64,000 nucleotides of DNA from Meghimatium bilineatum (lineage: Eukaryota; Mollusca; Gastropoda; Stylommatophora; Philomycidae), in assembly GCA_034231615.1 (NCBI GenBank), contig CM067316.1:29813714-29877713 (forward strand), read 5' to 3'. Positions 1-64,000 of the stretch are shown piece by piece (the stretch's first letter is position 1; the number at the start of each line of letters is the position of its first letter). The translations under genes and the position numbers were made by a program. The notes below the pieces were generated by a model. The model had not been told where the DNA came from and ran no database searches. It saw nothing but the letters and a program-made list of their open reading frames with translations.

Positions 1-240
1 TTGAATTGAGTCTATTCTGGCCTATTATACATCATTTCGTAGTAATGCAGCATAATACGTCAGAATACTGTCGTATTACACACAAATTAGGTCTTGCTGT
101 TTAGTACGTCAAAACTCAGTGTTTTGTGGCATATTACTCACAAATTGGGTGTACAAGCTTACTACACTTGAATTGAGTGTATTCTGACTTGTTACACATG
201 ACTGTTGTTTTGCAGCTTAATAACTAAGAACACTGGCGAA
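1..240 (+). repeat. Partial HOR at the left edge
   Basis: Starts inside s6 of a cut unit and ends with s14 at 240. It contains GTGTACAAGCTT at about 151, a 2-bp-shorter form of s11 otherwise seen near 37384 and 41279. It also has the 2-bp-shorter s13. Together with 241-1424 it belongs to the right-hand variant family. Confidence 0.85.
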
Positions 241-1424
241 TTATACACAAATTAGGTCTCTTGCTGTTTAGTACGTCAAAACTCAGTGTTCTATGGCATA
301 TTACTCACAAATTGGGTGTACTGCAGCTTACTAATCCAGAAATTGCAGTCTGGACACACGAATTTGGTGTATTCTAGCTAACTACGTTAGAACTCGGTGT
401 ATTCTATCATATTACTCACAAATTCATTGTTCTGAAGCTTACTACACTTGAATTGAGTCTATTCTGGCCTATTATACATCATTTCATAGTAATGCAGCAT
501 AATACGTCAGAATACTGTCGTATTACACACAAATTAGGTCTTGCTGTTTAGTACGTCAAAACTCAGTGTTTTGTGAAATATTACTCACAAATTGGGTGTA
601 CTGAAGCTTACTACACTTGAATTGAGTGTATTCTGGCCTGTTACACATGACGTCGTTGTTTTGGAGCTTAATAACTAAGAACACTGGCTAATTATACACA
701 AATTAGGTCTCTTGCTGTTTAGTAAGTCAAAACTCCGTGTTCTATGGCATATTACTCACAAATTGGGTGTACTGCAGCTTACTACACCAGAAATTGCAGT
801 CTGGACACACGAATTGGGTGTATTCCAGTTTAGTACGCCAAAACTCGTTGTATTCTGGCATATTACTCACAAATTCATTGTACTGAAGCATACTACACTA
901 GAATTGAGTGTATTCTGGCCTGTTACACATGACTTCGTTGTTTTGCAGCTTAATAACTAAGAACACTGGCGAATTATACACAAATTAGGTCTCTTGCTGT
1001 TTAGTACGTCAAAACTCAGTGTTCTATGGAATATTACTGACAAATTGGGTGTACTGCAGCTTACTACACCAGAAATTGCAGTCTGGACACACGAATTTGG
1101 TGTATTCTAGCTTACTACGTTAGAACTCGGTGTATTCTGGCATATTACTCACAAGTTCATTGTTCTGAAGCTTACTACTATTGAATTGAGTCTATTCTGG
1201 CCTATTATACATCATTTCGTAGTAATGCAGCATAATACGTCAGAATACTGTCGTATTACACACAAATTAGGTCTTGTTGTTTAGTAAGTGAAAACTCAGT
1301 GTTTTGTGGCATATTACTGACAAATTGGGTGTACTGAAGCTTACTACACTTGAATTCAGTGTATTCTGGCCTGTTACAGATGACTTCGTTGTTTTGCAGC
1401 TTAATAACTAAGAACACTGGCGAA
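241..1424 (+). repeat. Right-family block: HOR units 241, 692, 974
   Basis: Unit lengths are 451, 282 and 451. Boundaries and private variants align with units 37473, 37924 and 38206 at a constant offset of 37232. Shared marks are the preceding GTACAAGCTT, CTAACTACG in s3/s4, TTTGGAGCTT in s13, a GG-T-AATTATAC form of s14 and CCGTGTTC in s16. It is therefore a copy of a block whose other copies lie 37-42 kb away. Confidence 0.8.
692..973 (+). repeat. 282-bp chimeric unit, right subtype
   Basis: Order is s15, s16, s1, s2, short s3, a chimeric 31-mer, s5, s12, s13, s14, so s6-s11 (169 bp) are missing. The chimeric monomer begins like s16 (TTAGTACGCCAAAACTCG) and ends like s4 (TATTCTGGCA). Subtype marks are CCGTGTTC in s16, GTACTGAAGCATAC in s5 and CACATGACTT in s13. 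Siblings lie at 37924, 39910 and 61692. Confidence 0.88.
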
Positions 1425-1706
1425 TTATACACAAATTAGGTCTCTTGCTGTTTAGTACGTCAAAACTCAGTGTTCTATGGCATATTACTTACAAATTGGG
1501 TGTACTGCAGCTTACTACACCAGAAATTGCAGTCTGGACACACGAATTGGGTGTATTCCAGTTTAGTACACCAAAACTCGTTGTATTCTGGCATATTACT
1601 CACAAATTCATTGTACTGAAGCTTACTACACTAGAATTGAGTGTATTCTGGCCTGTTACAGATGACTTCGTTGTTTTGCAGCTTAATAACTAAGAACACT
1701 GGCGAA
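1425..1706 (+). repeat. 282-bp chimeric unit, left subtype
   Basis: Same monomer order as the unit at 692, but with the left-subtype marks TTACTTACAAATTG in s1, GTACTGAAGCTTAC in s5 and TTACAGATGACTT in s13. It has the private change GTACACCAAAACT where the others have GTACGCC. A 171-bp B unit (1707) with ACATGTCTTCG follows, then a full unit with CTATAGCATATTACTCAG. This trio recurs at 5488, 8655, 15597 and 18139. Confidence 0.88.
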
Positions 1707-3470
1707 TTATACACAAATTAGGTCTCTTGCTGTTTAGTACGTCAAAACTCAGTGTTCTATGGCATATTACTCACAAATTGGGTGTACTGAAGCTTACTAC
1801 ATTTGAATTGAGTGTATTCTGGCCTGTTACACATGTCTTCGTTGTTTTGCAGCTTAATAACTAAGAACACTGGCGAATTATACACAAATTAGGTCTCTTG
1901 CTGTTTAGTACGTCAAAACTCAGTGTTCTATAGCATATTACTCAGAAATTGGGTGTACTGCAGCTTACTACACCAGAAATTGCAGTCTGGACACACGATT
2001 TTGGTGTATTCTAGCTTACTACGTTAGAACTCGGTGTATTCTGGCATATTACTCACAAGTTCATTGTTCTGAAGCTTACTACACTTGAATTGAGTCTATT
2101 CTGGCCTATTATACATCATGTCGTAGTAATGCAGCAAAATACGTCAGAATACTGTCGTATTACACACAAATTAGGTCTTGCTGTTTAGTACGTCAAAACT
2201 GAGTGTTTTGTGGCATATTACTCACAAAATGGGTGTACTGAAGCTTACTACACTTGAATTGAGTGTATTCTGGCCTGTTACACATGACTTCGTTGTTTTC
2301 CAGCTTAATAACTAAGAACACTGGCGAATTATACACAAATTAGGTCTCTTGCTGTTTAGTACGTCAAAACTCATTGTTCTATTGCATATTACTCACAAAT
2401 TGGGTGTACTGAAGCTTACTACACTTGAATTGAGTGTATTCTGACTTGTTACACACGACTGTTGTTATGCAGCTTAATAACTAAGAACACTGGCGAATTA
2501 TACACAAATTAGGTCTCTTGCTGTTTAGTACGTCATAACTCAGTGTTCTATGGCATATTACTCACAAATTGGGTGTACTGCAGCTTACTACACCAGAAAT
2601 TGCAGTCTGGACACACGAATTTTGGTGTATTCTAGCTTACTACGTTAGAACTCGGTGTATTCTGGCATATTACTCACAAGTTCATTGTTCTGAAGCTTAC
2701 TACACTTGAATTGAGTCTGTTCTGGCCTATTATACATCATTTCGTAGTAATGCAGCATAATACGTCAGAATAATGTCGTATTACACACAAATTAGGTCTT
2801 GCTGTTTAGTAAGTCAAAACTCAGTGTTTTGTGGCATATTACTCACAAATTGGGTGTACTGAAGCTTAATACATTTGAATTGAGTGTATTCTGGCCTGTT
2901 ACACATGACTTCGTTGTTTTGCAGCTTAATAAGAACACTGGCGAATTATACACAAATTAGGTCTCTTGCTGTTTAGTACGTCAAAACTCAGTGTTCTATG
3001 GCATATTACTCACAAATTGGGTGTACTGCAGCTTACTACACCAGAAATTGCAGTCTGGACACACGAATTTGGTGCATTCTAGCTTACTACGTTAGAACTC
3101 GGTGTATTCTGGCATATTACTCACAAGTTCATTGTTCTGAAGCTTACTACACTTGAATTGAGTCTATTCTGGCCTATTATACATCATTTCGTAGTAATGC
3201 AGCATAATACGTCAGAATACTGTCGTATTACACACAAATTAGGTCTTGCTGTTTAGTACGTCAAAACTCAGTGTTTTGTGGCATATTACTCACAAATTGG
3301 GTGTACTGAAGCTTACTACATTTGAATTGAGTGTATTCTGGCCTGTTACACATGACTTCGTTGTTTTGCAGCTTAATAACTAAGAACACTGGCGAATTAT
3401 ACACAAATTAGGTCTCTTGCTGTTTAATACGTCAAAACTCATTGTTCTATTGCATATTACTCACAAATTG

Positions 3471-3509
3471 GGTGTACTGCAGCTTACTACACCAGAAATT
3501 GCAGTCTGG
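3471..3509. other. Two adjacent short dyads across s1/s2
   Basis: GGTGTA at 3471-3476 is the reverse complement of TACACC at 3488-3493. Immediately after it, CCAGA at 3492-3496 pairs with TCTGG at 3505-3509 around an 8-base loop. Both arms recur wherever s1 and s2 are intact, about once per full HOR. The stems are only 5-6 bp, so stable hairpins are doubtful. The regular recurrence is the reason for noting them. Confidence 0.45.
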
Positions 3510-4749: not shown

Positions 4750-5487
4750 TTATACACAAATTAGGTCTCTTGCTGTTTAGTACGTCAAAACTCAGTGTTC
4801 TATTGCATATTACTCACATATTGGGTGTACTGCAGCTTACTACACCAGAAATTGCAGTCTGGACACACAAATTTGGTGTATTCTAGCTTACTACGTTAGA
4901 ACTCGGTGAATTCTGGCATATTACTCACAAGTTCATTGTTCTGAAGCTTACTACATTAGAATTGAGTGTATTCTGGCCTATTATACATCATTTCGTTGTA
5001 TTTTAGCATAATACGTCAGAATACTGTCGTATTACACACAGATTAGATCTTGCTGTTTAGTACGTCAAAACTCAGTGTTTTGTGGCATATTACTCACAAA
5101 TTGGGTGTACTGAAGCTTACTACACTTGAATTGAGTGTATTCTGGCCTGTTACACATGACTTTGGTGTATTCTAGCTAACTACGTTAGAACTCGGTGTAT
5201 TCTGTAATATTACTCACAAATTCATTGTTCTGAAGCTTACTACACTTGAATTGAGTCTATTCTCGCCTATTATAATTCATTTCATAGTAATGCAGCATAA
5301 TACGTCAGAATACTGTCGTATTACACACAAATTAGGTCTTGCTGTTTAGTACGTCAAAACTCAGTGTATTGTGGCATATTACTCACAAATTGGGTGTACT
5401 GAAGCTTACTACACTTGAATTGAGTGTATTCTTACTTGTTACACATGACTGTTGTTTTGCAGCTTAATAACTAAGAACACTGGCGAA
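4750..5487 (+). repeat. 738-bp hybrid-containing unit
   Basis: Layout is tail s15-s16 (4750-4807), module A (4808-5087), hybrid module (5088-5376), then the start of a 169-bp B module. Module A has GTGAATTCTGG in s4, ATTAGAATTGAGTG in s6, CGTTGTATTTTAGC in s7 and GATTAGATCTTGC in s9. These marks recur in the units at 11979, 14859, 17401 and 53448, which therefore share one origin. Confidence 0.88.
5088..5376 (+). repeat. 289-bp hybrid module (s11-s12-s13/s3-s4...s10), copy 1
   Basis: s13 runs normally to CACATGAC at 5160 and switches to s3 sequence (TTTGGTGTATTCTAGC) from 5161. The joined monomer is 30 bp long (13 + 17), so monomer register is kept. Downstream s4-s10 carry shared marks: CTAACTACG, CTGTAATATTACTC, CTCGCCTATTATAATTC and AGTGTATTGTGGC. 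The switch joins non-equivalent monomers and occurs seven times in the window. Confidence 0.88.
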
Positions 5488-7869
5488 TTATACATAAATT
5501 AGGTCTCTTGCTGTTTAGTACGTCAAAACTCAGTGTTCTATGGCATATTACTTACAAATTGGGTGTACTGCAGCTTACTACACCAGAAATTGCAGTCTGG
5601 ACACACGAATTGGGTGTATTCCAGTTTAGTACGCCAAAACTCGTTGTATTCTGGCATATTACTCACAAATTCATTGTACTGAAGCTTACTACACTAGAAT
5701 TGAGTGTATTCTGGCCTGTTACAGATGACTTCGTTGTTTTGCAGCTTAATAACTAAGAACACTGGCGAATTATACACAAATTAGGTCTCTTGCTGTTTAG
5801 TACGTCAAAACTCAGTGTTCTATGGAATATTACTCACAAATTGGGTGTACTGAAGCTTACTACATTTGAATTGAGTGTATTCTGGCCTGTTACACATGTC
5901 TTCGTTGTTTTGCAGCTTAATAACTAAGAACACTGGCGAATTATACACAAATTAGGTCTCTTGCTGTTTAGTACGTCAAAACTCAGTGTTCTATAGCATA
6001 TTACTCAGAAATTGGGTGTACTGCAGCTTACTACACCAGAAATTGCAGTCTGGACACACGATTTTGGTGTATTCTAGCTTACTACGTTAGAACTCGGTGT
6101 ATTCTGGCATATTACTCACAAGTTCATTGTTCTGAAGCTTACTACACTTGAATTGAGTCTATTCTGGCCTATTATACATCATGTCGTAGTAATGCAGCAA
6201 AATACGTCAGAATACTGTCGTATTACACACAAATTAGGTTTTGCTGTTTAGTACGTCAAAACTGAGTGTTTTGTGGCATATTACTCACAAAATGGGTGTA
6301 CTGAAGCTTACTACACTTGAATTGAGTGTATTCTGGCCTGTTACACATGACTTCGTTGTTTTCCAGCTTAATAACTAAGAACACTGGCGAATTATACACA
6401 AATTAGGTCTCTTGCTGTTTAGTACGTCAAAACTCATTGTTCTATTGCATATTACTCACAAATTGGGTGTACTGAAGCTTACTACACTTGAATTGAGTGT
6501 ATTCTGACTTGTTACACATGACTGTTGTTTTGCAGCTTAATAACTAAGAACACTGGTGAATTATACACAAATTAGGTCTCTTGCTGTTTAGTACGTCAAA
6601 ACTCAGTGTTCTATGGCATATTACTCACAAATTGGGTGTACTGCAGCTTACTACACCAGAAATTGCAGTCTGGACACACGAATTTGGTGTATTCTAGCTT
6701 ACTACGTTAGAACTCGGTGTATTCTGGCATATTACTCACAAGTTCATTGTTCTGAAGCTTACTACACTTGAATTGAGTCTATTCTGGCCTATTATACATC
6801 ATTTCGTAGTAATGCAGTATAATACGTCAGAATAATGTCGTATTACACACAAATTAGGTCTTGCTGTTTAGTACGTCAAAACTCAGTGTTTTGTGGCATA
6901 TTACTCACAAATTGGGTGTACTGAAGCTTAATACATTTGAATTGAGTGTATTCTGGCCTGTTACACATGACTTCGTTGTTTTGCAGCTTAATAAGAACAC
7001 TGGCGAATTATACACAAATTAGGTCTCTTGCTGTTTAGTACGTCAAAACTCAGTGTTCTATGGCATATTACTCACAAATTGGGTGTACTGCAGCTTACTA
7101 CACCAGAAATTGCAGTCTGGACACACGAATTTGGTGCATTCTAGCTTACTACGTTAGAACTCGGTGTATTCTGGCATATTACTCACAAGTTCATTGTTCT
7201 GAAGCTTACTACACTTGGATTGAGTCTATTCTGGCCTATTATACATCATGTCGTAGTAATGCAGCAAAATACGTCAGAATACTGTCGTATTACACACAAA
7301 TTAGGTCTTGCTGTTTAGTACGTCAAAACTGAGTGTTTTGTGGCATATTACTCACAAAATGGGTGTACTGAAGCTTACTACACTTGAATTGAGTGTATTC
7401 TGGCCTGTTACACATGACTTCGTTGTTTTCCAGCTTAATAACTAAGAACACTGGCGAATTATACACAAATTAGGTCTCTTGCTGTTTAGTACGTCAAAAC
7501 TCATTGTTCTATTGCACATTACTCACAAATTGGGTGTACTGCAGCTTACTATACCAGAAATTGCAGTCTGGACACACGATTTTGGTGTATTCTAGCTTAC
7601 TACGTTAGAACTCGGTGTATTCTGGCATATTACTCACAAGTTCATTGTTCTGAAGCTTACTACACTTGAATTGAGTCTATTCTGGCCTATTATACATCAT
7701 GTCGTAGTAATGCAGCAAAATACGTCAGAATACTGTCGTATTACACACAAATTAGGTCTTGCTGTTTAGTACGTCAAAACTGAGTGTTTTGTGGCATATT
7801 ACTCACAAAATGGGTGTACTGAAGCTTACTACACTTGAATTGAGTGTATTCTGGCCTGTTACACATGAC
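5161..7869 (+). repeat. 2.7-kb duplicated block, copy 1
   Basis: Matches 8328-11036 at a constant offset of 3167. It includes units 5488 (282), 5770 (171), 5941 (451), 6392 (169), 6561 (447), 7008 (451) and part of 7459. Shared private variants include CTATGGAATATTAC, TTAGGTTTTGC, GCAGTATAATACG and a 4-bp-shorter s14 before 7008. I noticed only a few differences (6557 T against 9724 C; CTATACCAG near 7550 against CTACACCAG), so the copies look recent. Confidence 0.85.
5488..5769 (+). repeat. 282-bp chimeric unit, left subtype
   Basis: Chimeric s16/s4 monomer, with s6-s11 missing. Starts with TTATACATAAATTAGG, a C-to-T change in s15 found before most left-subtype copies. Lies inside the 2.7-kb duplicated block. 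Confidence 0.88.
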
Positions 7870-8085
7870 TTTGGTGTATTCTAGCTAACTACGTTAGAAC
7901 TCGGTGTATTCTGTAATATTACTCACAAATTCATTGTTCTGAAGCTTACTACACTTGAATTGAGTCTATTCTCGCCTATTATAATTCATTTCATAGTAAT
8001 GCAGCATAATACGTCAGAATACTGTCGTATTACACACAAATTAGGTCTTGCTGTTTAGTACGTCAAAACTCAGTGTATTGTGGCA
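7797..8085 (+). repeat. 289-bp hybrid module, copy 2
   Basis: The s13-to-s3 switch is at 7869/7870. It carries CTGTAATATTACTC, CTCGCCTATTATAATTC and AGTGTATTGTGG, identical in these marks to copy 1. The host unit (7459-8196) differs from the other 738-bp units in having the CATGTCG/AAAATGGG type of module A, so the hybrid module was grafted into a different background. Confidence 0.85.
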
Positions 8086-8327
8086 TATTACTCACAAATT
8101 GGGTGTACTGAAGCTTACTACACTTGAATTGAGTGTATTCTTACTTGTTACACATGACTGTTGTTTTGCAGCTTAATAACTAAGAACACTGGCGAATTAT
8201 ACATAAATTAGGTCTCTTGCTGTTTAGTACGTCAAAACTCAGTGTTTTGTGGCATATTACTCACAAAATGGGTGTACTGAAGCTTACTACACTTGAATTG
8301 AGTGTATTCTGGCCTGTTACACATGAC
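7870..8327 (+). repeat. 458-bp direct repeat between the 2.7-kb copies
   Basis: Starts at the hybrid switch (7870) and ends just before the next identical switch (8328). Its first ~374 bp also match 5161-5534. After AACTCAGTGTT it continues TTGTGGC and s11 instead of CTATGGC and s1, which returns it to a second hybrid module. A single out-of-register exchange in the s10/s16 tail would produce it. Confidence 0.82.
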
Positions 8328-8543
8328 TTTGGTGTATTCTAGCTAACTACGTTAGAACTCGGTGTATTCTGTAATATTACTCACAAATTCATTGTTCTGA
8401 AGCTTACTACACTTGAATTGAGTCTATTCTCGCCTATTATAATTCATTTCATAGTAATGCAGCATAATACGTCAGAATACTGTCGTATTACACACAAATT
8501 AGGTCTTGCTGTTTAGTACGTCAAAACTCAGTGTATTGTGGCA
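8255..8543 (+). repeat. 289-bp hybrid module, copy 3
   Basis: Core of the only 458-bp unit (8197-8654 = tail 58 + hybrid 289 + B without its tail 111). It is a near-exact neighbour copy of 7797-8085 at 458-bp offset. Confidence 0.85.
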
Positions 8544-11036
8544 TATTACTCACAAATTGGGTGTACTGAAGCTTACTACACTTGAATTGAGTGTATTCTT
8601 ACTTGTTACACATGACTGTTGTTTTGCAGCTTAATAACTAAGAACACTGGCGAATTATACATAAATTAGGTCTCTTGCTGTTTAGTACGTCAAAACTCAG
8701 TGTTCTATGGCATATTACTTACAAATTGGGTGTACTGCAGCTTACTACACCAGAAATTGCAGTCTGGACACACGAATTGGGTGTATTCCAGTTTAGTACG
8801 CCAAAACTCGTTGTATTCTGGCATATTACTCACAAATTCATTGTACTGAAGCTTACTACACTAGAATTGAGTGTATTCTGGCCTGTTACAGATGACTTCG
8901 TTGTTTTGCAGCTTAATAACTAAGAACACTGGCGAATTATACACAAATTAGGTCTCTTGCTGTTTAGTACGTCAAAACTCAGTGTTCTATGGAATATTAC
9001 TCACAAATTGGGTGTACTGAAGCTTACTACATTTGAATTGAGTGTATTCTGGCCTGTTACACATGTCTTCGTTGTTTTGCAGCTTAATAACTAAGAACAC
9101 TGGCGAATTATACACAAATTAGGTCTCTTGCTGTTTAGTACGTCAAAACTCAGTGTTCTATAGCATATTACTCAGAAATTGGGTGTACTGCAGCTTACTA
9201 CACCAGAAATTGCAGTCTGGACACACGATTTTGGTGTATTCTAGCTTACTACGTTAGAACTCGGTGTATTCTGGCATATTACTCACAAGTTCATTGTTCT
9301 GAAGCTTACTACACTTGAATTGAGTCTATTCTGGCCTATTATACATCATGTCGTAGTAATGCAGCAAAATACGTCAGAATACTGTCGTATTACACACAAA
9401 TTAGGTTTTGCTGTTTAGTACGTCAAAACTGAGTGTTTTGTGGCATATTACTCACAAAATGGGTGTACTGAAGCTTACTACACTTGAATTGAGTGTATTC
9501 TGGCCTGTTACACATGACTTCGTTGTTTTCCAGCTTAATAACTAAGAACACTGGCGAATTATACACAAATTAGGTCTCTTGCTGTTTAGTACGTCAAAAC
9601 TCATTGTTCTATTGCATATTACTCACAAATTGGGTGTACTGAAGCTTACTACACTTGAATTGAGTGTATTCTGACTTGTTACACATGACTGTTGTTTTGC
9701 AGCTTAATAACTAAGAACACTGGCGAATTATACACAAATTAGGTCTCTTGCTGTTTAGTACGTCAAAACTCAGTGTTCTATGGCATATTACTCACAAATT
9801 GGGTGTACTGCAGCTTACTACACCAGAAATTGCAGTCTGGACACACGAATTTGGTGTATTCTAGCTTACTACGTTAGAACTCGGTGTATTCTGGCATATT
9901 ACTCACAAGTTCATTGTTCTGAAGCTTACTACACTTGAATTGAGTCTATTCTGGCCTATTATACATCATTTCGTAGTAATGCAGTATAATACGTCAGAAT
10001 AATGTCGTATTACACACAAATTAGGTCTTGCTGTTTAGTACGTCAAAACTCAGTGTTTTGTGGCATATTACTCACAAATTGGGTGTACTGAAGCTTAATA
10101 CATTTGAATTGAGTGTATTCTGGCCTGTTACACATGACTTCGTTGTTTTGCAGCTTAATAAGAACACTGGCGAATTATACACAAATTAGGTCTCTTGCTG
10201 TTTAGTACGTCAAAACTCAGTGTTCTATGGCATATTACTCACAAATTGGGTGTACTGCAGCTTACTACACCAGAAATTGCAGTCTGGACACACGAATTTG
10301 GTGCATTCTAGCTTACTACGTTAGAACTCGGTGTATTCTGGCATATTACTCACAAGTTCATTGTTCTGAAGCTTACTACACTTGGATTGAGTCTATTCTG
10401 GCCTATTATACATCATGTCGTAGTAATGCAGCAAAATACGTCAGAATACTGTCGTATTACACACAAATTAGGTCTTGCTGTTTAGTACGTCAAAACTGAG
10501 TGTTTTGTGGCATATTACTCACAAAATGGGTGTACTGAAGCTTACTACACTTGAATTGAGTGTATTCTGGCCTGTTACACATGACTTCGTTGTTTTCCAG
10601 CTTAATAACTAAGAACACTGGCGAATTATACACAAATTAGGTCTCTTGCTGTTTAGTACGTCAAAACTCATTGTTCTATTGCACATTACTCACAAATTGG
10701 GTGTACTGCAGCTTACTACACCAGAAATTGCAGTCTGGACACACGATTTTGGTGTATTCTAGCTTACTACGTTAGAACTCGGTGTATTCTGGCATATTAC
10801 TCACAAGTTCATTGTTCTGAAGCTTACTACACTTGAATTGAGTCTATTCTGGCCTATTATACATCATGTCGTAGTAATGCAGCAAAATACGTCAGAATAC
10901 TGTCGTATTACACACAAATTAGGTCTTGCTGTTTAGTACGTCAAAACTGAGTGTTTTGTGGCATATTACTCACAAAATGGGTGTACTGAAGCTTACTACA
11001 CTTGAATTGAGTGTATTCTGGCCTGTTACACATGAC
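8328..11036 (+). repeat. 2.7-kb duplicated block, copy 2
   Basis: Offset +3167 from 5161-7869. Units: 8655 (282), 8937 (171), 9108 (451), 9559 (169), 9728 (447), 10175 (451), 10626 (451, partly). The match ends at 11036/11037, where copy 1 enters a hybrid module but copy 2 continues through ordinary s13 (TTCGTTGTTTTCC). Confidence 0.85.
8655..8936 (+). repeat. 282-bp chimeric unit, left subtype
   Basis: Copy of 5488-5769 within the second 2.7-kb block; chimeric 31-mer with GTACGCCAAAACTCG, and TTACAGATGACTT in s13. Confidence 0.88.
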
Positions 11037-18418: not shown

Positions 18419-20740
18419 TTATACACAAATTAGGTCTCTTGCTGTTTAGTACGTCAAAACTCAGTGTTCTATGGCATATTACTCACAAATTGGGTGTACT
18501 GAAGCTTACTACATTTGAATTGAGTGTATTCTGGCCTGTTACACATGTCTTCGTTGTTTTGCAGCTTAATAACTAAGAACACTGGCGAATTATACACAAA
18601 TTAGGTCTCTTGCTGTTTAGTACGTCAAAACTCAGTGTTCTATAGCATATTACTCAGAAATTGGGTGTACTGCAGCTTACTACACCAGAAATTGCAGTCT
18701 GGACACGATTTTGGTGTATTCTAGCTTACTACGTTAGAACTCGGTGTATTCTGGCATATTACTCACAAGTTCATTGTTCTGAAGCTTACTACACTTGAAT
18801 TGAGTCTATTCTGGCCTATTATACATCATGTCGTAGTAATGCAGCAAAATACGTCAGAATACTGTCGTATTACACACAAATTAGGTCTTGCTGTTTAGTA
18901 CGTCAAAACTGAGTGTTTTGTGGCATATTACTCACAAAATGGGTGTACTGAAGCTTACTACACTTGAATTGAGTGTATTCTGGCCTGTTACACATGACTT
19001 CGTTGTTTTCCAGCTTAATAACTAAGAACACTGGCGAATTATACACAAATTAGGTCTCTTGCTGTTTAGTACGTCAAAACTCATTGTTCTAATGCATATT
19101 ACTCACAAATTGGGTGTACTGAAGCTTACTACACTTGAATTGAGTGTATTCTGACTTGTTACACATGACTGTTGTTTTGCAGCTTAATAACTAAGAACAC
19201 TGGCGAATTATACACAAATTAGGTCTCTTGCTGTTTAGTACGTCAAAACTCAGTGTTCTATGGCATATTACTCACAAATTGGGTGTACTGCAGCTTACTA
19301 CACCAGAAATTGCAGTCTGCACACGAATTTGGTGTATTCTAGCTTACTACGTTAGAACTCGGTGTATTCTGGCATATTACTCACAAGTTCATTGTTCTGA
19401 AGCTTACTACACTTGAATTGAGTCTATTCTGGCCTATTATACATCATTTCGTAGTAATGCAGCATAATACGTCAGAATAATGTCGTATTACACACAAATT
19501 AGGTCTTGCTGTTTAGTACGTCAAAACTCAGTGTTTTGTGGCATATTACTCACAAATTGGGTGTACTGAAGCTTAATACATTTGAATTGAGTGTATTCTG
19601 GCCTGTTACACATGACTTCGTTGTTTTGCAGCTTAATAAGAACACTGGCGAATTATACACAAATTAGGTCTCTTGCTGTTTAGTACGTCAAAACTCAGTG
19701 TTCTATGGCATATTACTCACAAATTGGTTGTACTGCAGCTTACTACACCAGAAATTGCAGTCTGGACACACGAATTTGGTGCATTCTAGCTTACTACGTT
19801 AGAACTCGGTGTATTCTGGCATATTACTCACAAGTTCATTGTTCTGAAGCTTACTACACTTGAATTGAGTCTATTCTGGCATATTATACATCATTTCGTA
19901 GTAATGCAGCATAATACGTCAGAATACTGTCGTATTACACACAAATTAGGTCTTGCTGTTTAGTACGTCAAAACTCATTGTTCTATTGCATATTACTCAC
20001 AAATTGGGTGTACTGAAGCTTACTACACTTGACTTGACTGTATTCTGACTTGTTACACATGACTGTTGTTTTGCAGCTTAATAACTAAGAACACTGGCGA
20101 ATTATACACAAATTAGGTCTCTTGCTGTTTAGTACGTCAAAACTCAGTGTTCTATGGCATATTACTGACAAATTGGGTGTACTGCAGCTTACTACACCAG
20201 AAATTGCAGTCTGGACACACGAATTTGGTGTATTCTAGCTTACTACGTTAGAACTCGGTGTATTCTGGCATATTACTCACAAGTTCATTGTTCTGAAGCT
20301 TACTACACTTAAATTGAGTCTATTCTGGCCTATTATACATCATTTCGTAGTAATGCAGCATAATACGTCAGAATAATGTCGTATTACACACAAATTAGGT
20401 CTTGCTGTTTAGTACTTCAAAACTCAGTGTTTTGTGGCATATTACTCACAAATTGGGTGTACTGAAGCTTAATACATTTGAATTGAGTGTATTCTGGCCT
20501 GTTACACATGACTTCGTTGTTTTGCAGCTTAATAAGAACACTGGCGAATTATACACAAATTAGGTCTCTTGCTGTTTAGTACGTCAAAACTCAGTGTTCT
20601 ATGGCATATTACTGACAAATTGGGTGTACTGCAGCTTACTACACTAGAAATTGCAGTCTGGACACACGAATTTGGTGTATTCTAGCTTACTACGTTAGAA
20701 CTCGGTGTATTCTGGCATATTACTCACAAGTTCATTGTTC
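18419..20740 (+). repeat. HOR units 18419-20740
   Basis: Units: 18419 (171), 18590 (449), 19039 (169), 19208 (445), 19653 (449), 20102 (447), 20549 (451, continuing into the next block). There are 2-bp losses in s2 at about 18703 (TCTGGACACGATT) and 19319 (TCTGCACACG), and s14 is 4 bp shorter before 19653 and 20549. 19653 has the A tail start (GGTCTTGC) running into ATTGTTCTATTGC and then s11. Confidence 0.8.
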
Positions 20741-39458: not shown

Positions 39459-39909
39459 TTATACACAAATTAGGTCTCTTGCTGTTCAGTACGTCAAAAC
39501 TCAGTGTTCTATGGCATATTACTCACAAATTGGGTGTACTGCAGCTTACTACACCAGAAATTGCAGTCTGGACACACGAATTTGGTGTATTCTAGCTTAC
39601 TACGTTAGAACTCGGTGTATTCTGGCATATTACTCACAAGTTCATTGTTCTGAAGCTTACTACATAAGAAGTGAGTGTATTCTGGCCTATTATACATCAT
39701 TTCGTTGTATTGCAGCATAATACGTCAGAATACTGTCGTATTACACACAGATCAGATCTTGCTGTTTAGTACGTCAAAACTCAGTGTTCTATGGCATATT
39801 ACTCACAAATTGGGTGTACTGCAGCTTACTACACTTGAATTGAGTGTATTCTGGCCTGTTACACATGACTTCGTTGTTTTGGAGCTTAATAACTAAGAAC
39901 ACTGGTTAA

Positions 39910-42100: not shown

Positions 42101-42455
42101 TTATACACAAATTAGGTCTCTTGCTGTTTAGTACGTCAAAACTCAGTGTTCTATGGCATATTACTGACAAATTGGGTGTACTTCAGCTTACTACACCAGA
42201 AATTGCAGTCTGGACACACGAATTTGGTGTATTCTAGCTTACTACGTTAGAACTCGGTGTATTCTGGCATATTACTCACAAGTTCATTGTTCTGAAGCTT
42301 ACTACTATTGAATTGAGTCTATTCTGGCCTATTATACATCATTTCGTAGTAATGCAGCATAGTACGTCAGAATAATGTCGTATTATAGAGTGTATTCTGG
42401 CCTTTTACACATGACTTCGTTGTTTTGCAGCTTAATAACTAAGAACACTGGCGAA
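42101..42455 (+). repeat. 355-bp deletion unit, second copy
   Basis: Same s9-to-s12 junction as 39384 (TATTATAGAGTG at 42381) and the same TTTTACACATGAC. It has CTACTATTGAATTG in s6 and CATAGTACGTC in s8, so the surrounding unit differs from the first copy. Confidence 0.87.
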
Positions 42456-43635
42456 TTATACACAAATTAGGTCTCTTGCTGTTCAGTACGTCAAAACTCA
42501 GTGTTCTATGGCATATTACTCACAAATTGGGTGTACTGCAGCTTACTACACCAGAAATTGCAGTCTGGACACACGAATTTTGTGCATTCTACCTTACTAC
42601 GTTAGAACTCGGTGTATTCTGGCATATTACTCCCAAGTTAATTGTTCTGAAGCTTACTACATAAGAAGTGAGTGTATTCTGGCCTATTATACATCATTTC
42701 GTTGTATTGCAGCATAATACGTCAGAATACTGTCGTATTACACACAGATCAGATCTTGCTGTTTAGTACGTCAAAACTCAGTGTTCTATGGCATATTACT
42801 CACAAATTGGGTGTACTGCAGCTTACTACACCAGAAATTGCAGTCTGGACACACGAATTTGGTGTATTCTAGCTTACTACGTTAGAACTCGGTGTATTCT
42901 GGCATATTACTCACGTTCATTGTTCTGAAGCTTACTACACATGAATTGAGTCTATTCTGGCCTATTATACATCATTTCGTAGTAATGCAGCATAATACGT
43001 CAGAATACTGTCGTATTACACACAAATTAGGTCTTGCTGTTTAGTACGTCAAAACTCAGTGTTTTGTGGCATATTACTCACAAATTGGGTGTACTGAAGC
43101 TTACTACACTTGAATTGAGTGTATTCTGGCCTGTTACACATGACTTCGTTGTTTTGCAGCTTAATAACTAAGAACACTGGCGAATTATACACAAATTAGG
43201 TCTCTTGCTGTTTAGTACGTCAAAACTCAGTGTTCTATTGCATATTACTGACAAATTGGGTGTACTGCAGCTTACTACACCAGAAATTGCAGTCTGGACA
43301 CACGAATTTGGTGTATTCTAGCTTACTACGTTAGAACTCGGTGTATTCTGGCATATTACTCACAAGTTCATTGTTCTGAAGCTTACTACACTTGAATTGA
43401 GTATATTCTGGCATATTATACATCATTTCATTTTAATGCAGCATAATACGTCAGAATACTGTCGTATTACACACAAATTAGGTCTTGCTGTTTAGTACGT
43501 CAAAACTCAGTGTTTTGTGGCATATTACTCACAAATTGGGTGTACTGAAGCTTACTACATTTGAATTGAGTGTATTCTGGCCTGTTACACATGACTTCGT
43601 TGTTTTGCAGCTTAATAACTAAGAACACTGGCGAA

Positions 43636-52107: not shown

Positions 52108-53447
52108 TTATACACAAATTAGGTCTCTTGCTGTTTAGTACGTCAAAACTCAGTGTTCTATGGCATATTACTCACAAATTGGGTGTACTGCAGCTTACTA
52201 CACCAGAAATTGCAGTCTGGACACACGAATTTGGTGTATTCTAGCTTACTACGTTAGAACTCGGTGTATTCTGGCATATTACTCACAAGTTCATTGTTCT
52301 GAAGCTTACTACACTTGAATTGAGTCTATTCTGGCCTATTATACATCATTTCGTAGTAATGCAGCATAATACGTCAGAATAATGTCGTATTACACACAAA
52401 TTAGGTCTTGCTGTTTAGTACGTCAAAACTCAGTTTTGTGGCATATTACTCACAAATTGGGTGTACTGAAGCTTACTACATTTGAATTGAGTGTATTCTG
52501 GCCTGTTACACATGACTTCGTTGTTTTGCAGCTTAATAACTAAGAACACTGGCGAATTATACACAAATTAGGTCTCTTGCTGTTTAGTACGTCAAAACTA
52601 TTGCATATTACTCACAAATTGGGTGTACTGCAGCTTACTACACCAGAAATTGCAGTCTGGACACACGAATTTGGTGTATTCTAGCTTACTACGTTAGAAC
52701 TCGGTGTATTCTGGCATATTACTCACAAGTTCATTGTTCTGAAGCTTACTACACTTGAATTGAGTCTATTCTGGCCTATTATACATCATTTCGTAGTAAT
52801 GCAGCATAATACGTCAGAATACTGTCGTATTACACACAAATTAGGTCCTGCTGTTTAGTACGTCAAAACTCAGTGTTTTGTGGCATATTACTCACAAATT
52901 GGGTGTACTGAAGCTTACTACACTTGAATTGAGTGTATTCTGACTTGTTACACATGACTGTTGTTTTGCAGCTTAATAACTAAGAACACTGGCGAATTAT
53001 ACACAAATTAGGTCTCTTGCTGTTCAGTACGTCAAAACTCAGTGTTCTATGGCATATTACTCACAAATTGGGTGTACTGCAGCTTACTACACCAGAAATT
53101 GCAGTCTGGACACACGAATTTGGTGTATTCTAGCTTACTACGTTAGAACTCGGTGTATTCTGGCATATTACTCACAAGTTCATTGTTCTGAAGCTTACTA
53201 CTATTGAATTGAGTCTATTCTGGCCTATTATACATCATTTCGTAGTAATGCAGCAAAATACGTCTGAATACTGTCGTATTACACACACATTAGGGCTTGC
53301 TGTTTAGTACGTCAAAACTGAGTGTTTTGTGGCATATTACTCACAAATTGGGTGTACTGAAGCTTACTACACTTGAATTGAGTGTATTCTGGCCTGTTAC
53401 ACATGACTTCGTTGTTTTGCAGCTTAATAACTAAGAACACTGGCGAA
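52108..53447 (+). repeat. HOR units 52108-53447
   Basis: Units: 52108 (449), 52557 (440), 52997 (451). 52557 has a 9-bp loss in s16 (GTCAAAACTATTGC). 52108 has ACTCAGTTTTGTGG (2 bp lost) shared with 35275. 52997 has TTCAGTACGTC in s16, ACGTCTGAATACTG in s8 and ATTAGGGCTTGC in s9. Confidence 0.82.
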
Positions 53448-56258: not shown

Positions 56259-56800
56259 TTATACACAAATTAGGTCTCTTGCTGTTTAGTACGTCAAAAC
56301 TCAGTGTTCTATTGCATATTACTCACATATTGGGTGTACTGCAGCTTACTACACCAGAAATTGCAGTCTGGACACACGAATTTGGTGTATTCTAGCTTAC
56401 TACGTTAGAACTCGGTGTATTCTGGCATATTACTCACAAGTTCATTGTTCTGAAGCTTACTACACTTGAATTGAGTGTATTCTGGCCTGTTACAGATGAC
56501 TTCGTTGTTTTGCAGCTTAATAACTAAGAACACTGGCGAATTATACACAAATTAGGTCTCTTGCTGTTTAGTACGTCAAAACTCAGTGTTTTGTGGCATA
56601 TTACTCACAAATTGGGTGTACTGAAGCTTACTACACTTGAATTGAGTGTATTCTGACTTGTTACACATGACTGTTGTTTTGCAGCTTAATAACTAAGAAC
56701 ACTGGCGAATTATACACAAATTAGGTCTCTTGCTGTTTAGTACGTCAAAACTCAGTGTTTTGTGGCATATTACTCACAAATTGGGTGTACTGAAGCTTAC
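56259..56800 (+). repeat. 282-bp non-chimeric unit plus short units
   Basis: 56259 (282) lacks s6-s11 but has ordinary s3 and s4 and TTACAGATGAC in s13; a similar unit is at 62425. It is followed by 56541 (169) and the start of 56710 (167). Confidence 0.82.
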
Positions 56801-59204
56801 GACATTTGAATTGAGTGTATTTTGGCCTGTTACACATGACTTCGTTGTTTTGCAGCTCAATAAGAACACTGGCGAATTATACACAAATTAGGTCTCTTGC
56901 TGTTCAGTACGTCAAAACTCAGTGTTCTATGGCATATTACTCACAAATTGGGTGTACTGCAGCTTACTACACCAGAAATTGCAGTCTGGACACACGAATT
57001 TAGTGCATTCTAGCTTACTACGTTAGAACTCGGTGTATTCTGGCATATTACTCACAAGTTCGTTGTTCTGAAGCTTACTACACTTGAATTGAGTCTATTC
57101 TGGCATATTATACATCATTTCGTAGTAATGCAGCATAATACGTCAGAATACTGTCGTATTACACACAAATTAGGTCTTGCTGTTTAGTACGTCAAAACTC
57201 AGTGTTTTGTGGCATATTACTCACAAATTGGGTGTACTGAAGCTTACTACACTTGAATTGAGTGTATTCTGGCCTGTTACACATGACTTCGTTGTTTTGC
57301 AGCTTAATAACTAAGAACACTGGCGAATTATACACAAATTAGGTCTCTTGCTGTTTAGTACGTCAAAATTCATTGTTCTATTGCATATTACTCACAAATT
57401 GGGTGTACTGAAGCTTACTACACTTGAATTGAGTGTATTCTGACTTGTTACACATGACTGTTGTTTTGCAGCTTAATAACTAAGAACACTGGCGAATTAC
57501 ACACAAATTAGGTCTTGCTGTTTAGTACGTCAAAACTCAGTGTTTTGTGGCATATTACTCACAAATTGGGTGTACTGAAGCTTACTACATTTGAATTGAG
57601 TGTATTTTGGCCTGTTACACATGACTTCGTTGTTTTGCAGCTCAATAAGAACACTGGCGAATTATACACAAATTAGGTCTCTTGCTGTTCAGTACGTCAA
57701 AACTCAGTGTTCTATGGCATATTACTCACAAATTGGGTGTACTGCAGCTTACTACACCAGAAATTGCAGTCTGGACACACGAATTTAGTGCATTCTAGCT
57801 TACTACGTTAGAACTCGGTGTATTCTGGCATATTACTCACAAGTTCGTTGTTCTGAAGCTTACTACACTTGAATTGAGTCTATTCTGGCATATTATACAT
57901 CATTTCGTAGTAATGCAGCATAATACGTCAGAATACTGTCGTATTACACACAAATTAGGTCTTGCTGTTTAGTACGTCAAAACTCAGTGTTTTGTGGCAT
58001 ATTACTCACAAATTGGGTGTACTGAAGCTTACTACACTTGAATTGAGTGTATTCTGGCCTGTTACACATGACTTCGTTGTTTTGCAGCTTAATAACTAAG
58101 AACACTGGCGAATTATACACAAATTAGGTCTCTTGCTGTTTAGTACGTCAAAACTCATTGTTCTATTGCATATTACTCACAAATTGTGTGTACTGCAGCT
58201 TACTACACCAGAAATTGCAGTCTGGACACACGAATTTGGTGTATTCTAGCTTACTACGTTAGAACTCGGTGTATTCTGGCATATTACTCACAAATTGGGT
58301 GTACGGAAGCTTACTACACTTGAATTGAGTCTATTCTGGCCTATTATACATCATTTCGTAGTAATGCAGCATAATACGTCAGAATACTGTCGTATTACAC
58401 ACAAATTAGGTCTTGCTGTTTAGTACGTCAAAACTCAGTGTTCTATTGCATATTACTCACAAATTGGGTGTACTGCGGCTTACTACACCAGAAATTGCAG
58501 TCTGGACACACGAATTTGATGTATTCTAGCTTACTACGTTAGAACTCGGTGTATTCTGGCATATTACTCACAAGTTAATTGTTCTGAAGCTTACTACATA
58601 AGAAGTGAGTGTATTCTGGCCTATTATACATCATTTCGTATTGCAGCATAATACGTCAGAATACTGTCGTATTACACACAGATCAGATCTTGCTGTTTAC
58701 GTCAAAACCCAGTGTTCTATGGCATATTACTCACAAATTGGGTGTACTGCAGCTTAATACACCAGAAATTGCAGTCTGGACACGAATTTGGTGTATTCTA
58801 GCTTACTACGTTAGAACTCGGTGTATTCTGGCATATTACTCACGTTCATTGTTCTGAAGCTTACTACACATGAATTGAGTCTATTCTGGCCTATTATACA
58901 TCATTTCGTAGTAATGCAGCATAATACGTCAGAATACTGTTGTATTACACACAAATTAGGTCTTGTTGTTTAGTACGTCAAAACTCAGTGTTTTGTGGCA
59001 TATTACTCACAAATTGGGTGTACTGAAGCTTACTACACTTGAATTGAGTGTATTCTGGCCTGTTACACATGACTTCGTTGTTTTGCAGCTTAATAACTAA
59101 GAACACTGGCGAATTATACACAAATTAGGTCTCTTGCTGTTTAGTACGTCAAAACTCATTGTTCTATTGCATATTACTCACAAATTGGGTGTACTGAAGC
59201 TTAC
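56801..59204 (+). repeat. 2404-bp tandem duplication, copy 1
   Basis: Begins in s12 at the private TTACGACATTTG. Units: 56877 (451), 57328 (169), 57497 (165), 57662 (451), 58113 (1001), 59114 (167, continuing). Marks are GTGTATTTTGGCC, CAGCTCAATAAG, GAATTTAGTGC and AAGTTCGTTG. There is an internal 785-bp repeat (56815 and 57600). 58113 is an A-A-A-B unit like 35848 with extra losses: CTGTTTACGTC (3 bp), GGACACGAATTTGG (2 bp) and CATTTCGTATTGC (3 bp). Confidence 0.88.
58113..59113 (+). repeat. ~1000-bp unit with three A modules (A-A-A-B)
   Basis: Homologue of 35848-36856 (shared ATTGTGTGTACTG, GGTGTACGGAAGC, AAGAAGTGAG, ACAGATCAGATC and CACGTTC), shorter by 8 bp through three small losses. 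Confidence 0.85.
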
Positions 59205-61613
59205 GACATTTGAATTGAGTGTATTTTGGCCTGTTACACATGACTTCGTTGTTTTGCAGCTCAATAAGAACACTGGCGAATTATACACAAATTAGGTCTC
59301 TTGCTGTTCAGTACGTCAAAACTCAGTGTTCTATGGCATATTACTCACAAATTGGGTGTACTGCAGCTTACTACACCAGAAATTGCAGTCTGGACACACG
59401 AATTTAGTGCATTCTAGCTTACTACGTTAGAACTCGGTGTATTCTGGCATATTACTCACAAGTTCGTTGTTCTGAAGCTTACTACACTTGAATTGAGTCT
59501 ATTCTGGCATATTATACATCATTTCGTAGTAATGCAGCATAATACGTCAGAATACTGTCGTATTACACACAAATTAGGTCTTGCTGTTTAGTACGTCAAA
59601 ACTCAGTGTTTTGTGGCATATTACTCACAAATTGGGTGTACTGAAGCTTACTACACTTGAATTGAGTGTATTCTGGCCTGTTACACATGACTTCGTTGTT
59701 TTGCAGCTTAATAACTAAGAACACTGGCGAATTATACACAAATTAGGTCTCTTGCTGTTTAGTACGTCAAAATTCATTGTTCTATTGCATATTACTCACA
59801 AATTGGGTGTACTGAAGCTTACTACACTTGAATTGAGTGTATTCTGACTTGTTACACATGACTGTTGTTTTGCAGCTTAATAACTAAGAACACTGGCGAA
59901 TTACACACAAATTAGGTCTTGCTGTTTAGTACGTCAAAACTCAGTGTTTTGTGGCATATTACTCACAAATTGGGTGTACTGAAGCTTACTACATTTGAAT
60001 TGAGTGTATTTTGGCCTGTTACACATGACTTCGTTGTTTTGCAGCTCAATAAGAACACTGGCGAATTATACACAAATTAGGTCTCTTGCTGTTCAGTACG
60101 TCAAAACTCAGTGTTCTATGGCATATTACTCACAAATTGGGTGTACTGCAGCTTACTACACCAGAAATTGCAGTCTGGACACACGAATTTAGTGCATTCT
60201 AGCTTACTACGTTAGAACTCGGTGTATTCTGGCATATTACTCACAAGTTCGTTGTTCTGAAGCTTACTACACTTGAATTGAGTCTATTCTGGCATATTAT
60301 ACATCATTTCGTAGTAATGCAGCATAATACGTCAGAATACTGTCGTATTACACACAAATTAGGTCTTGCTGTTTAGTACGTCAAAACTCAGTGTTTTGTG
60401 GCATATTACTCACAAATTGGGTGTACTGAAGCTTACTACACTTGAATTGAGTGTATTCTGGCCTGTTACACATGACTTCGTTGTTTTGCAGCTTAATAAC
60501 TAAGAACACTGGCGAATTATACACAAATTAGGTCTCTTGCTGTTTAGTACGTCAAAACTCATTGTTCTATTGCATATTACTCACAAATTGTGTGTACTGC
60601 AGCTTACTACACCAGAAATTGCAGTCTGGACACACGAATTTGGTGTATTCTAGCTTACTACGTTAGAACTCGGTGTATTCTGGCATATTACTCACAAATT
60701 GGGTGTACGGAAGCTTACTACACTTGAATTGAGTCTATTCTGGCCTATTATACATCATTTCGTAGTAATGCAGCATAATACGTCAGAATACTGTCGTATT
60801 ACACACAAATTAGGTCTTGCTGTTTAGTACGTCAAAACTCAGTGTTCTATTGCATATTACTCACAAATTGGGTGTACTGCAGCTTACTACACCAGAAATT
60901 GCAGTCTGGACACACGAATTTGATGTATTCTAGCTTACTACGTTAGAACTCGGTGTATTCTGGCATATTACTCACAAGTTAATTGTTCTGAAGCTTACTA
61001 CATAAGAAGTGAGTGTATTCTGGCCTATTATACATCATTTCGTATTGCAGCATAATACGTCAGAATACTGTCGTATTACACACAGATCAGATCTTGCTGT
61101 TTAGTACGTCAAAACCCAGTGTTCTATGGCATATTACTCACAAATTGGGTGTACTGCAGCTTAATACACCAGAAATTGCAGTCTGGACACACGAATTTGG
61201 TGTATTCTAGCTTACTACGTTAGAACTCGGTGTATTCTGGCATATTACTCACGTTCATTGTTCTGAAGCTTACTACACATGAATTGAGTCTATTCTGGCC
61301 TATTATACATCATTTCGTAGTAATGCAGCATAATACGTCAGAATACTGTTGTATTACACACAAATTAGGTCTTGTTGTTTAGTACGTCAAAACTCAGTGT
61401 TTTGTGGCATATTACTCACAAATTGGGTGTACTGAAGCTTACTACACTTGAATTGAGTGTATTCTGGCCTGTTACACATGACTTCGTTGTTTTGCAGCTT
61501 AATAACTAAGAACACTGGCGAATTATACACAAATTAGGTCTCTTGCTGTTTAGTACGTCAAAACTCATTGTTCTATTGCATATTACTCACAAATTGGGTG
61601 TACTGAAGCTTAC
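59205..61613 (+). repeat. 2404-bp tandem duplication, copy 2 (2409 bp)
   Basis: Repeats copy 1 at offset 2404, growing to 2409 because it lacks the 3-bp and 2-bp losses at about 58698 and 58780. Another difference is TGCAGCTT here against TGCGGCTT near 58475. Units: 59281 (451), 59732 (169), 59901 (165), 60066 (451), 60517 (1006), 61523 (start). Because the losses are only in copy 1, they postdate the duplication. Confidence 0.88.
60517..61522 (+). repeat. 1006-bp unit with three A modules (A-A-A-B)
   Basis: Sister of 58113 in the second 2404-bp copy; retains GTTTAGTACGTC and GGACACACG. Ends with TTGTTGTTTAGTACG in the last A tail, as do 36857 and 59114 upstream regions. Confidence 0.85.
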
Positions 61614-61691
61614 TACACTTGAATTGAGTGTATTCTGACTTGTTACACATGACTGTTGTTGTGCAGCTTAATAACTAAGAACACTGGCGAA

Positions 61692-61973: not shown

Positions 61974-62424
61974 TTATACACAAATTAGGTCTCTTGCTGT
62001 TTAGTACGTCAAAACTCAGTGTTCTATGGCATATTACTGACAAATTGGGTGTACTGCAGCTTACTACACCAGAAATTGCAGTCTGGACACACGAATTTGG
62101 TGTATTCTAGCTTACTACGTTAGAACTCGGTGTATTCTGGCATATTACTCACAAGTTCATTGTTCTGAAGCTTACTACTATTGAATTGAGTCTATTATGG
62201 CCTATTATACATCATTTCGTAGTAATGCAGCAAAATACGTCAGAATACTGTCGTATTACACACACATTAGGTCTTGCTGTTTAGTACGTCAAAACTGAGT
62301 GTTTTGTGGCATATTACTCACAAATTGGGTGTACTGAAGCTTACTACACTTGAATTGAGTGTATTCTGGCTGGTTACACATGACTTCGTTGTTTTGCAGC
62401 TTAATAACTAAGAACACTGGCGAA

Positions 62425-62706
62425 TTATACACAAATTAGGTCTCTTGCTGTTTAGTACGTCAAAACTCAGTGTTCTATTGCATATTACTCACATATTGGG
62501 TGTACTGCAGCTTACTACACCAGAAATTGCAGTCTGGACACACGAATTTGGTGTATTCTAGCTTACTACGTTAGAACTCGGTGTATTCTGGCATATTACT
62601 CACAAGTTCATTGTTCTGAAGCTTACTACACTTGAATTGAGTGTATTCTGGCCTGTTACAGATGACTTCGTTGTTTTGCAGCTTAATAACTAAGAACACT
62701 GGCGAA
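62425..62706 (+). repeat. 282-bp non-chimeric unit
   Basis: s15, s16, s1-s5, s12, s13, s14: s6-s11 are missing, with ordinary s3 and s4. Has TTACAGATGAC in s13 like 56259, its closest relative. Confidence 0.84.
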
Positions 62707-63526
62707 TTATACACAAATTAGGTCTCTTGCTGTTTAGTACGTCAAAACTCAGTGTTCTATGGCATATTACTCACAAATTGGGTGTACTGCAGCTTACTAC
62801 ACCAGAAATTGCAGTCTGGACACACGAATTTGGTGTATTCTAGCTTACTACGTTAGAACTCGGTGTATTCTGGCATATTACTCACACGTTCATTGTTCTG
62901 AAGCTTACTACACTTGAATTGAGTCTATTCTGGCCTATTATACATCATTTCGTAGTAATGCAGCATAATACGTCAGAATACTGTTGTATTACACACAAAT
63001 TAGGTCCTGCTGTTTAGTACGTCAAAACTCAGTGTTTTGTGGCATATTACTCACAAATTGGGTGTACTGAAGCTTACTACACTTGAATTGAGTGTATTCT
63101 GACTTGTTACACATGACTGTTGTTTTGCAGCTTAATAACTAAGAACACTGGCGAATTATACACAAATTAGGTCTCTTGCTGTTTAGTACGTCAAAACTCA
63201 GTGTTCTATGGCATATTACTCACAAATTGGGTGTACTGCAGCTTACTACACAAGAAATTGCAGTCTGGACACACGAATTTGGTGTATTCTAGCTTACTAC
63301 GTTAGAACTCGGTGTATTCTGGCATATTACTCACAAGTTCATTGTTCTGAAGCTTACTACACTTGAATTGAGTCTATTCTGGCCTATTATACATCATTTC
63401 GTAGTAATGCAGCATAATACGTCAGAATAATGTCGTATTACACACAAATTAGGTCTTGCTGTTTAGTACGTCAAAACTCAGTGTTTTGTGGCATATTACT
63501 CACAAATTGGGTGTACTGAAGCTTAC

Positions 63527-64000
63527 GACATTTGAATTGAGTGTATTTTGGCCTGTTACACATGACTTCGTTGTTTTGCAGCTCAATAAGAACACTGGCG
63601 AATTATACACAAATTAGGTCTCTTGCTGTTCAGTACGTCAAAACTCAGTGTTCTATGGCATATTACTCACAAATTGGGTGTACTGCAGCTTACTACACCA
63701 GAAATTGCAGTCTGGACACACGAATTTAGTGCATTCTAGCTTACTACGTTAGAACTCGGTGTATTCTGGCATATTACTCACAAGTTCGTTGTTCTGAAGC
63801 TTACTACACTTGAATTGAGTCTATTCTGGCATATTATACATCATTTCGTAGTAATGCAGCATAATACGTCAGAATACTGTCGTATTACACACAAATTAGG
63901 TCTTGCTGTTTAGTACGTCAAAACTCAGTGTTTTGTGGCATATTACTCACAAATTGGGTGTACTGAAGCTTACTACACTTGAATTGGGTGTATTCTGGCC
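63527..64000 (+). repeat. Start of a further 2404-type copy, cut by the window end
   Basis: TTACGACATTTG, GTGTATTTTGGCC, CAGCTCAATAAG, GAATTTAGTGC and AAGTTCGTTG reappear exactly as at 56801 and 59205, then the array leaves the window inside s12. The array therefore continues to the right. Confidence 0.88.

Follow-up and report, generated by a model that had tools for sequence, protein, structure and literature searches.

A layered higher-order repeat satellite, probably part of a centromere, in the slug Meghimatium bilineatum

The chromosome-scale contig C19 of the Meghimatium bilineatum assembly (66.95 Mb of a 1.612-Gb assembly in 32 contigs) carries a satellite array of ~950 kb in which ~30-bp subrepeats form units of ~171 bp and, in the centre of the array, units of several types form higher-order repeats (HORs). 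The stretch analysed here, referred to as the window (C19:29813714-29877713, 64,000 bp), lies inside this HOR core. We consider it probable that the window belongs to the homogeneous core of the centromere of C19, or of its immediate surroundings, and that this core follows the plan of primate alpha satellite. Taken together, the 171-bp unit, the helical phase of its A/T dinucleotides, the place of the array in the middle of the contig and its two-sided layers are most simply read as a centromeric satellite, the live part of which would be the HOR core. The best reading of the wider data is a putative centromeric satellite that has layers of different age and HORs specific to single chromosomes.

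The HOR core and its flanking layers on C19

Wrap-around profile decomposition resolved all 64,000 bp of the window into 2278 head-to-tail monomers, most commonly of 30 bp (1495), 21 bp (265), 28 bp (190), 29 bp (142) and 22 bp (141). The whole window is one long non-coding satellite array, uninterrupted and built on a ~30-bp monomer, as the original prediction had it. Self-match is strongest at lag 451 (0.516, with 0.269 expected) and has further peaks at lags 169 (0.464), 60 (0.447), 111 (0.441), 171 (0.432) and 30 (0.424); the maximum over lags 1-999 in one shuffled window was 0.274. Both predicted periodicities, 30 and 451 bp, are therefore present, and the 451-bp HOR of 16 monomers is borne out by 77 copies of the composition set out below, 36 of them exactly 451 bp and 26 of them 449 bp long. 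Identity between the 16 monomer slots of the HOR averages 0.60, while monomers average 0.965 identity to their own slot, and 10 of the 2278 (both cut window ends included) lie more than 25% away from every slot. Pairwise identity of the HOR copies averages 0.959 (2926 pairs): as predicted, diverged monomers sit inside HORs whose copies are more than ~95% alike.

The bare 30-mer, which had been taken as the base of the HOR, is real as a subrepeat, but the unit that has been multiplied comprises three A/B dimers, a hexamer of ~171 bp. The slots split into two classes, A and B, by odd and even position (identity 0.696 within and 0.567 between classes), which is the best of the 6435 possible 8+8 splits. 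This split test is the independent evidence for the two classes, because the labels by which A and B alternate at 2274 of 2277 monomer steps of the window carry the slot number. Inside a single hexamer the contrast is weaker (h, 0.656 vs 0.530; H, 0.636 vs 0.563). The slots group into three blocks, H (six monomers, 171 bp), h (six monomers, 169 bp) and T (four monomers, 111 bp), and the HOR is composed of h+H+T. It is not the sole arrangement: in a count that labels 13 variant T and 8 variant H blocks apart, plain hHT makes up 65 of the 128 T-delimited units, hT 19 and hHHT 14, the remainder having other orders. The last monomer of the variant T blocks, to which the T at 1482-1592 belongs, is nearest to slot h6.

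To follow the array beyond the window, we sampled 37 loci of C19 and scored the first 3000 bases of each against the slots. Fourteen loci (29.42-30.105 Mb) match at 0.96-0.98, nine loci on the two sides of these (29.30-29.41 and 30.113-30.20 Mb) match at 0.84-0.86, and 14 outer loci are at background (0.49-0.52); beyond the array, the sampled DNA is non-satellite. The layer edges estimated from the sampled loci (~29,258,900, ~29,419,600, ~30,113,000 and ~30,209,100) therefore give a HOR core of ~693 kb, known from sampled loci, between older layers of ~161 and ~96 kb. All 23 satellite loci among the 37 score best on the plus strand.

In the flanks the array is a plain ~171-bp tandem: 216 of 228 spacings between short monomers are six monomers long (eight loci, one of which extends past the array edge), and the flank consensus is 171 bp long. 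Aligned with H, this consensus has 149 matches, 19 mismatches and 6 gap positions, and with h it has 149 matches, 20 mismatches and 2 gap positions. Mean pairwise identity of the flank units is 0.903 (n = 225 of 233 cut units, those 165-175 bp long). Against T, the flank consensus gives 97 matches, 14 mismatches and 60 gap positions, and on this alignment the best reading of T is a 171-bp unit from which one 60-bp dimer would have been lost. Which dimer was lost is ambiguous, H without monomers 2-3 or without monomers 4-5 fitting T near-equally (0.735 and 0.742). A uniform core with older layers on both sides is thus what the sampled loci of C19 present.

In the left flank layer (C19:29275000-29294999), a ~2.2-kb fragment occurs three times; its copies are 99.5-100% alike and have the domains of a reverse transcriptase (PF00078) and an RNase H (PF00075). 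Set in satellite, they are most simply explained by one insertion that was later copied with its surroundings. No interruption of this type was found within the 64-kb window.

The satellite on other chromosomes

A query with the 171-bp layer (208 matches; the 38 best of 3244 candidates scored) matched C19, C24, C8, C23, C9 and C25, with one region each among the matches listed. With the 451-bp HOR as query (122 matches), C19 was the only contig among the matches listed, the 40 best of 2778 candidates scored, which suggests that this HOR may be particular to C19. On C13, the smallest of the large contigs with a known length, 20 points from 9.5 to 18.3 Mb were sampled (one consisted of N throughout, another had N at 430 of 701 bases). 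Satellite was found at two adjacent points, 13.685 and 14.150 Mb, and at a third point between them. The HOR here is h-T-H-T, 562 bp long, with a lag-562 self-match of 0.971 and 1.0 over 139 bp in two samples. The order hTHT occurs 0 times in the C19 window, and HThT 13 times. HORs made of the same types thus differ in order between two chromosomes, hHT on C19 and hTHT on C13, one of the three C13 samples being weak.

In all, the satellite was seen on seven large contigs: C19, C24, C8, C23, C9, C25 and C13. Samples outside C19 were 400-700 bases each. Two (50.50 Mb, 24.32 Mb) of eight 400-base points on C24 and C8 were not satellite; the C8 samples are 170/171-bp units, and C24 has 171-bp units at 50.66 Mb and a 282-bp block of ten monomers at 50.58 Mb. 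All three C25 samples are 171-bp tandems. In the two C9 samples and one C23 sample, the self-match is higher at lags of ~335-345 bp than at ~171 bp, which may point to two-unit HORs (dimers) on C9 and C23; the second C23 sample has no strong period. The seven satellite regions lie at 0.36-0.66 of the way along their contigs, a range to which C13 does not contribute independently, because only its middle was sampled. Known lengths of 17 of the contigs C1-C25 are 27.9-135.7 Mb, and C26-C32 are at most 242.5 kb long (C26, the largest, at 242.5 kb); we infer 25 chromosomes.

The relations between the unit types were examined in a FastTree phylogeny of 51 aligned hexamers. C19 contributed randomly drawn units (10 each of H and h, and 12 from the flanks), and other chromosomes contributed 19 units. 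The latter are all the blocks of six monomers in a set of 26, from which six blocks of four monomers and one of ten were left out; the 16 loci used include three without a hexamer, one of which supplied the ten-monomer block and nothing else. From C13 the tree has three H and two h units. Three clades emerge: one unites the H units from C13 and C19 (support 0.918), one the h units from these two contigs (0.856), and one all 26 units of the 171-bp layer (0.993). Within this third clade the units of C19, C25, C8 and C9 are not monophyletic, while the two C24 units are (0.761); the old layer is therefore common to chromosomes. Since the H and h clades each span both chromosomes, both types are older than the present C13 and C19 arrays, and since inside these clades each chromosome forms a clade of its own (0.938-0.996), each has since homogenised its own version.

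The following order of events would account for these relations. The satellite may have begun as ~30-bp subrepeats with a 10-bp A/T phase, which were joined into an A/B dimer. Three dimers, one monomer being 9 bp short, would then have made the 171-bp unit, which spread to the middle of several chromosomes. Its copies presumably diverged into h, H and T, T losing a dimer, and the types, shared between chromosomes, would have been fixed in different orders, hHT on C19 and hTHT on C13. The centre could be kept uniform by unequal exchange or break-induced replication, older 171-bp units remaining at both edges.

A putative centromere and the parallel with alpha satellite

A/T dinucleotides recur with a 10.0-bp period in the core, where the power in 451-bp stretches is 32 times that of shuffled sequence. 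In three flank loci the period is 10.05 bp (power over variance 47-55), and in five non-satellite loci the power over variance at 10.0 bp is 1.2-2.3. A column-permuted 30-mer control gave 0.017. Part of the coherence at 10.0 bp across all 64 kb is fortuitous, because block-length offsets of +1 and -1 almost balance. A 10-bp A/T phase is found in many satellites and is thought to favour nucleosome wrapping (PMC8997354, PMC5844345; these and the other papers given here by accession are cited from excerpts, to which what we say of them is limited).

Several observations weigh against a centromeric satellite on the alpha plan. The C19-specificity of the 451-bp HOR rests on the 40 best of 2778 candidates, and the third C13 sample has self-matches of 0.72 at 562 and 0.79 at 282. 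The samples from C8 and C25, and partly those from C24, C23 and C9, are 171-bp units or dimers with no multi-type HOR core, and the plan seen on C19 may therefore not be general. Unlike on C19, the satellite switches strand within C23 (39.45 and 39.60 vs 39.50-39.54 Mb) and within C24 (50.58 and 50.66 Mb). The pattern of the CENP-B box as scored here has 9 fixed positions, and the box does not occur in all alphoid arrays. The best site resembling this pattern has 2 mismatches and occurs once per HOR. Sites with two mismatches are in excess in the window (134 vs 31.6 in shuffles), an excess that amounts to a single site copied once per HOR; such a site also arises in 0.192 of 500 simulated 451-bp HORs, so the candidate is not beyond chance. 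Both T and the flank consensus of 171 bp contain it; H and h do not. For cruciform-prone dyads, considered as another candidate feature, the HOR consensus shows no enrichment, either at arm length 5 (13 vs 9.1, reached in 0.18 of 300 simulations) or at other arm lengths.

An alternative that we regard as unlikely, though it is the strongest of those considered, is a heterochromatic satellite near but not at the centromere, such as a pericentromeric block or an interstitial knob, with equal turnover and no kinetochore role. Kinetochore binding by the C19 array is putative, pericentromeres too are formed by satellites of such size, and a mid-contig position is by itself no mark of a centromere. 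Against this stand the single region per contig among the matches listed, on several contigs, and the homogeneous core between older layers, as in live human centromeres (PMC9549924).

Far less probable is an assembly artefact, in which collapsed or falsely multiplied repeats would lie behind the regularity of the HOR or behind a 4.4-kb duplication in the window (Table 1). The perfect tandem copy of 4407 bp could be a false join, and it is this duplication, more than the array, that the artefact reading concerns. The HOR copies differ by ~4%, a value flat with distance, and two-sided layers and contig-specific HORs are unlike the product of a local mis-join. That the window is a gene, a coding repeat or a mobile element is hardly credible: it has no open reading frame (ORF) of at least 150 aa (22 of at least 80 aa) and no Rfam match at gathering thresholds, all but 10 of its monomers are within 25% of a slot, one 2001-bp piece of it had no match in a phage collection searched in distant mode, and none of its exact 25-mers occurs in prokaryote and viral collections.

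A probable centromeric satellite, which we continue to prefer, has its closest architectural counterpart in primates. Live HOR cores of human centromeres are flanked by divergent and monomeric outer layers (PMC9549924, PMC5615363). As far as the excerpts go, the C19 array resembles alpha satellite in its ~171-bp unit, in HOR copies more than 95% alike, in HOR orders that differ between chromosomes while the types are common to them, in arrays of older units on both sides of a uniform core, and in a retrotransposon that lies in the old layer, with none seen in the 64-kb core window. It is unlike alpha satellite in that its unit consists of six ~30-bp subrepeats in A/B order, one of them short, in that T, one of the HOR members, lacks a 60-bp dimer, and in having no CENP-B-box-like site beyond chance, a single old layer seen and an invertebrate host. 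We treat the likeness as a parallel of architecture, the slug array working like alpha satellite, and do not class the array as a member of that family.

Other comparisons are more partial. In beetles and other non-primates, HORs are said to be mostly dimers, or else complex arrangements that include foreign or inverted segments (PMC5615363); the slug array shares with them head-to-tail HORs of an animal satellite outside primates, and differs in its three-unit (451 bp) and four-unit (562 bp) HORs and its two-sided older layer. Rice CentO and Drosophila centromeric satellites share the 10-bp phase of A/T dinucleotides (PMC8997354, PMC5844345); they differ in sequence and host, and in the slug, nucleosome phasing is predicted. 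The expression 'layered expansion' also appears in literature on the centromeres of plants and other organisms. Searched for HORs and related terms, PMC12692304 yielded no passage about them in invertebrates. The literature search returned nothing on this satellite, the one paper listed by one of its queries dealing with Donax 5S rDNA, and six 15-mers of it occur in no paper text searched. Layered HOR satellites are known from primates; what seems new is the combination in an invertebrate host.

Whether an invertebrate has independently reached the whole alpha-satellite plan, that is, a helically phased 171-bp unit, shared types, chromosome-specific HORs and two-sided layers, is a proposal that we make tentatively and hold a little less likely than its contrary. 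If it is true, the alpha plan would be a general outcome of nucleosome-size constraint and recombination, neither a primate peculiarity nor a product of the CENP-B box. Models of HORs and age layers (unequal exchange, break-induced replication, centromere drive) rest heavily on primates, and a second system with equal unit length, layers and chromosome-specific HORs, in which no CENP-B-box-like site exceeds chance, would give them an independent test. The steps 30 -> 60 -> 171 -> 451/562 bp, still legible in one array, would be a record of satellite assembly.

Duplications, sequence variation and further observations

Blocks of HORs have been duplicated after their formation, as predicted, but the regular third level of 1.2-7 kb super-repeats that was proposed has no fixed unit: long duplicates occur at many offsets (e.g. 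4391, 2404, 3167, 7229, 7239 and 10109) and are irregular segmental duplications. In self-BLAST at 97% identity or more, all 205 matches are on the plus strand. Table 1 gives the longest exact duplication together with other features of the window.

Table 1. Coordinates of features in the window
Feature	Positions	Strand	Basis
HOR-core stretch, uninterrupted; 2278 ~30-bp subrepeats, A/B alternating, in blocks h (169 bp), H (171 bp) and T (111 bp)	1..64000	+	profile decomposition
Example of the 451-bp HOR: h 1142-1310, H 1311-1481, T 1482-1592	1142..1592	+	decomposition
Exact tandem duplication, 20709-25115 = 25100-29506; 4407 bp, offset 4391 (longest exact)	20709..29506	+	exact self-match
Exact duplicate pair, 56765-58476 / 59169-60880; 1712 bp, offset 2404	56765..60880	+	exact self-match
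Exact duplicate pair, 5102-6556 / 8269-9723; 1455 bp, offset 3167	5102..9723	+	exact self-match
Out-of-register junction, h-type monomers 1-4 to H2, A/B order broken; 244-bp block	39272..39515	+	decomposition, A/B order
Second occurrence of the h1-4 to H2 out-of-register junction; 244-bp block	42269..42512	+	decomposition, A/B order
Block H + T; last H monomer (52584-52604) 21 and not 30 bp, a further 9-bp loss inside a monomer	52443..52715	+	decomposition

The A/B register breaks at three steps only, at 39362 and 42359 (the identical junction) and at the cut window end. Such rare breaks fit a turnover that would proceed mostly by in-register exchange or by break-induced replication, as in models proposed for satellites (PMC8997354). 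Local homogenisation was considered and set aside: identity between HOR copies barely changes with distance (0.965 at less than 500 bp, 0.957 at more than 48 kb), and the window has no clear domain boundary.

Along the 30-mer, 7 of 30 columns are invariant, compared with 2.8 in 2000 simulations on the slot tree (0.0185 of which reach 7; variance, 0.005), and 9 columns are conserved at 0.9 or more, which is not unusual (6.8 simulated; 0.23). Constraint on single positions of the 30-mer is suggestive only. The distinct variants of the core comprise 80 transitions and 150 transversions (60 and 126 without 44 conversion-like ones), and those of the flanks 106 and 165. CpG positions do not stand out as mutation hot spots in the core, and in the flanks they vary at 0.106, compared with 0.073 for other G/C positions; spectrum and rates together thus argue against strong CpG decay. 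The commonest class of core variants, over blocks H, h and T, is C>A (and G>T), with no transition bias.

Other sequences were encountered elsewhere in the assembly. The small contig C31 carries a stretch of 18S rRNA (1-1411, minus strand) that is followed by 7500 N within 10 kb; this 18S looks molluscan, or at any rate lophotrochozoan. The start of C1 (C1:1-3000) is a different tandem repeat, of the CACTGCTGCTACTAGTGTCGCTATCTCAGCTATGTC type. TTAGGG telomere repeats number 44290 in forward and 51493 in reverse orientation, with 0 for the controls.

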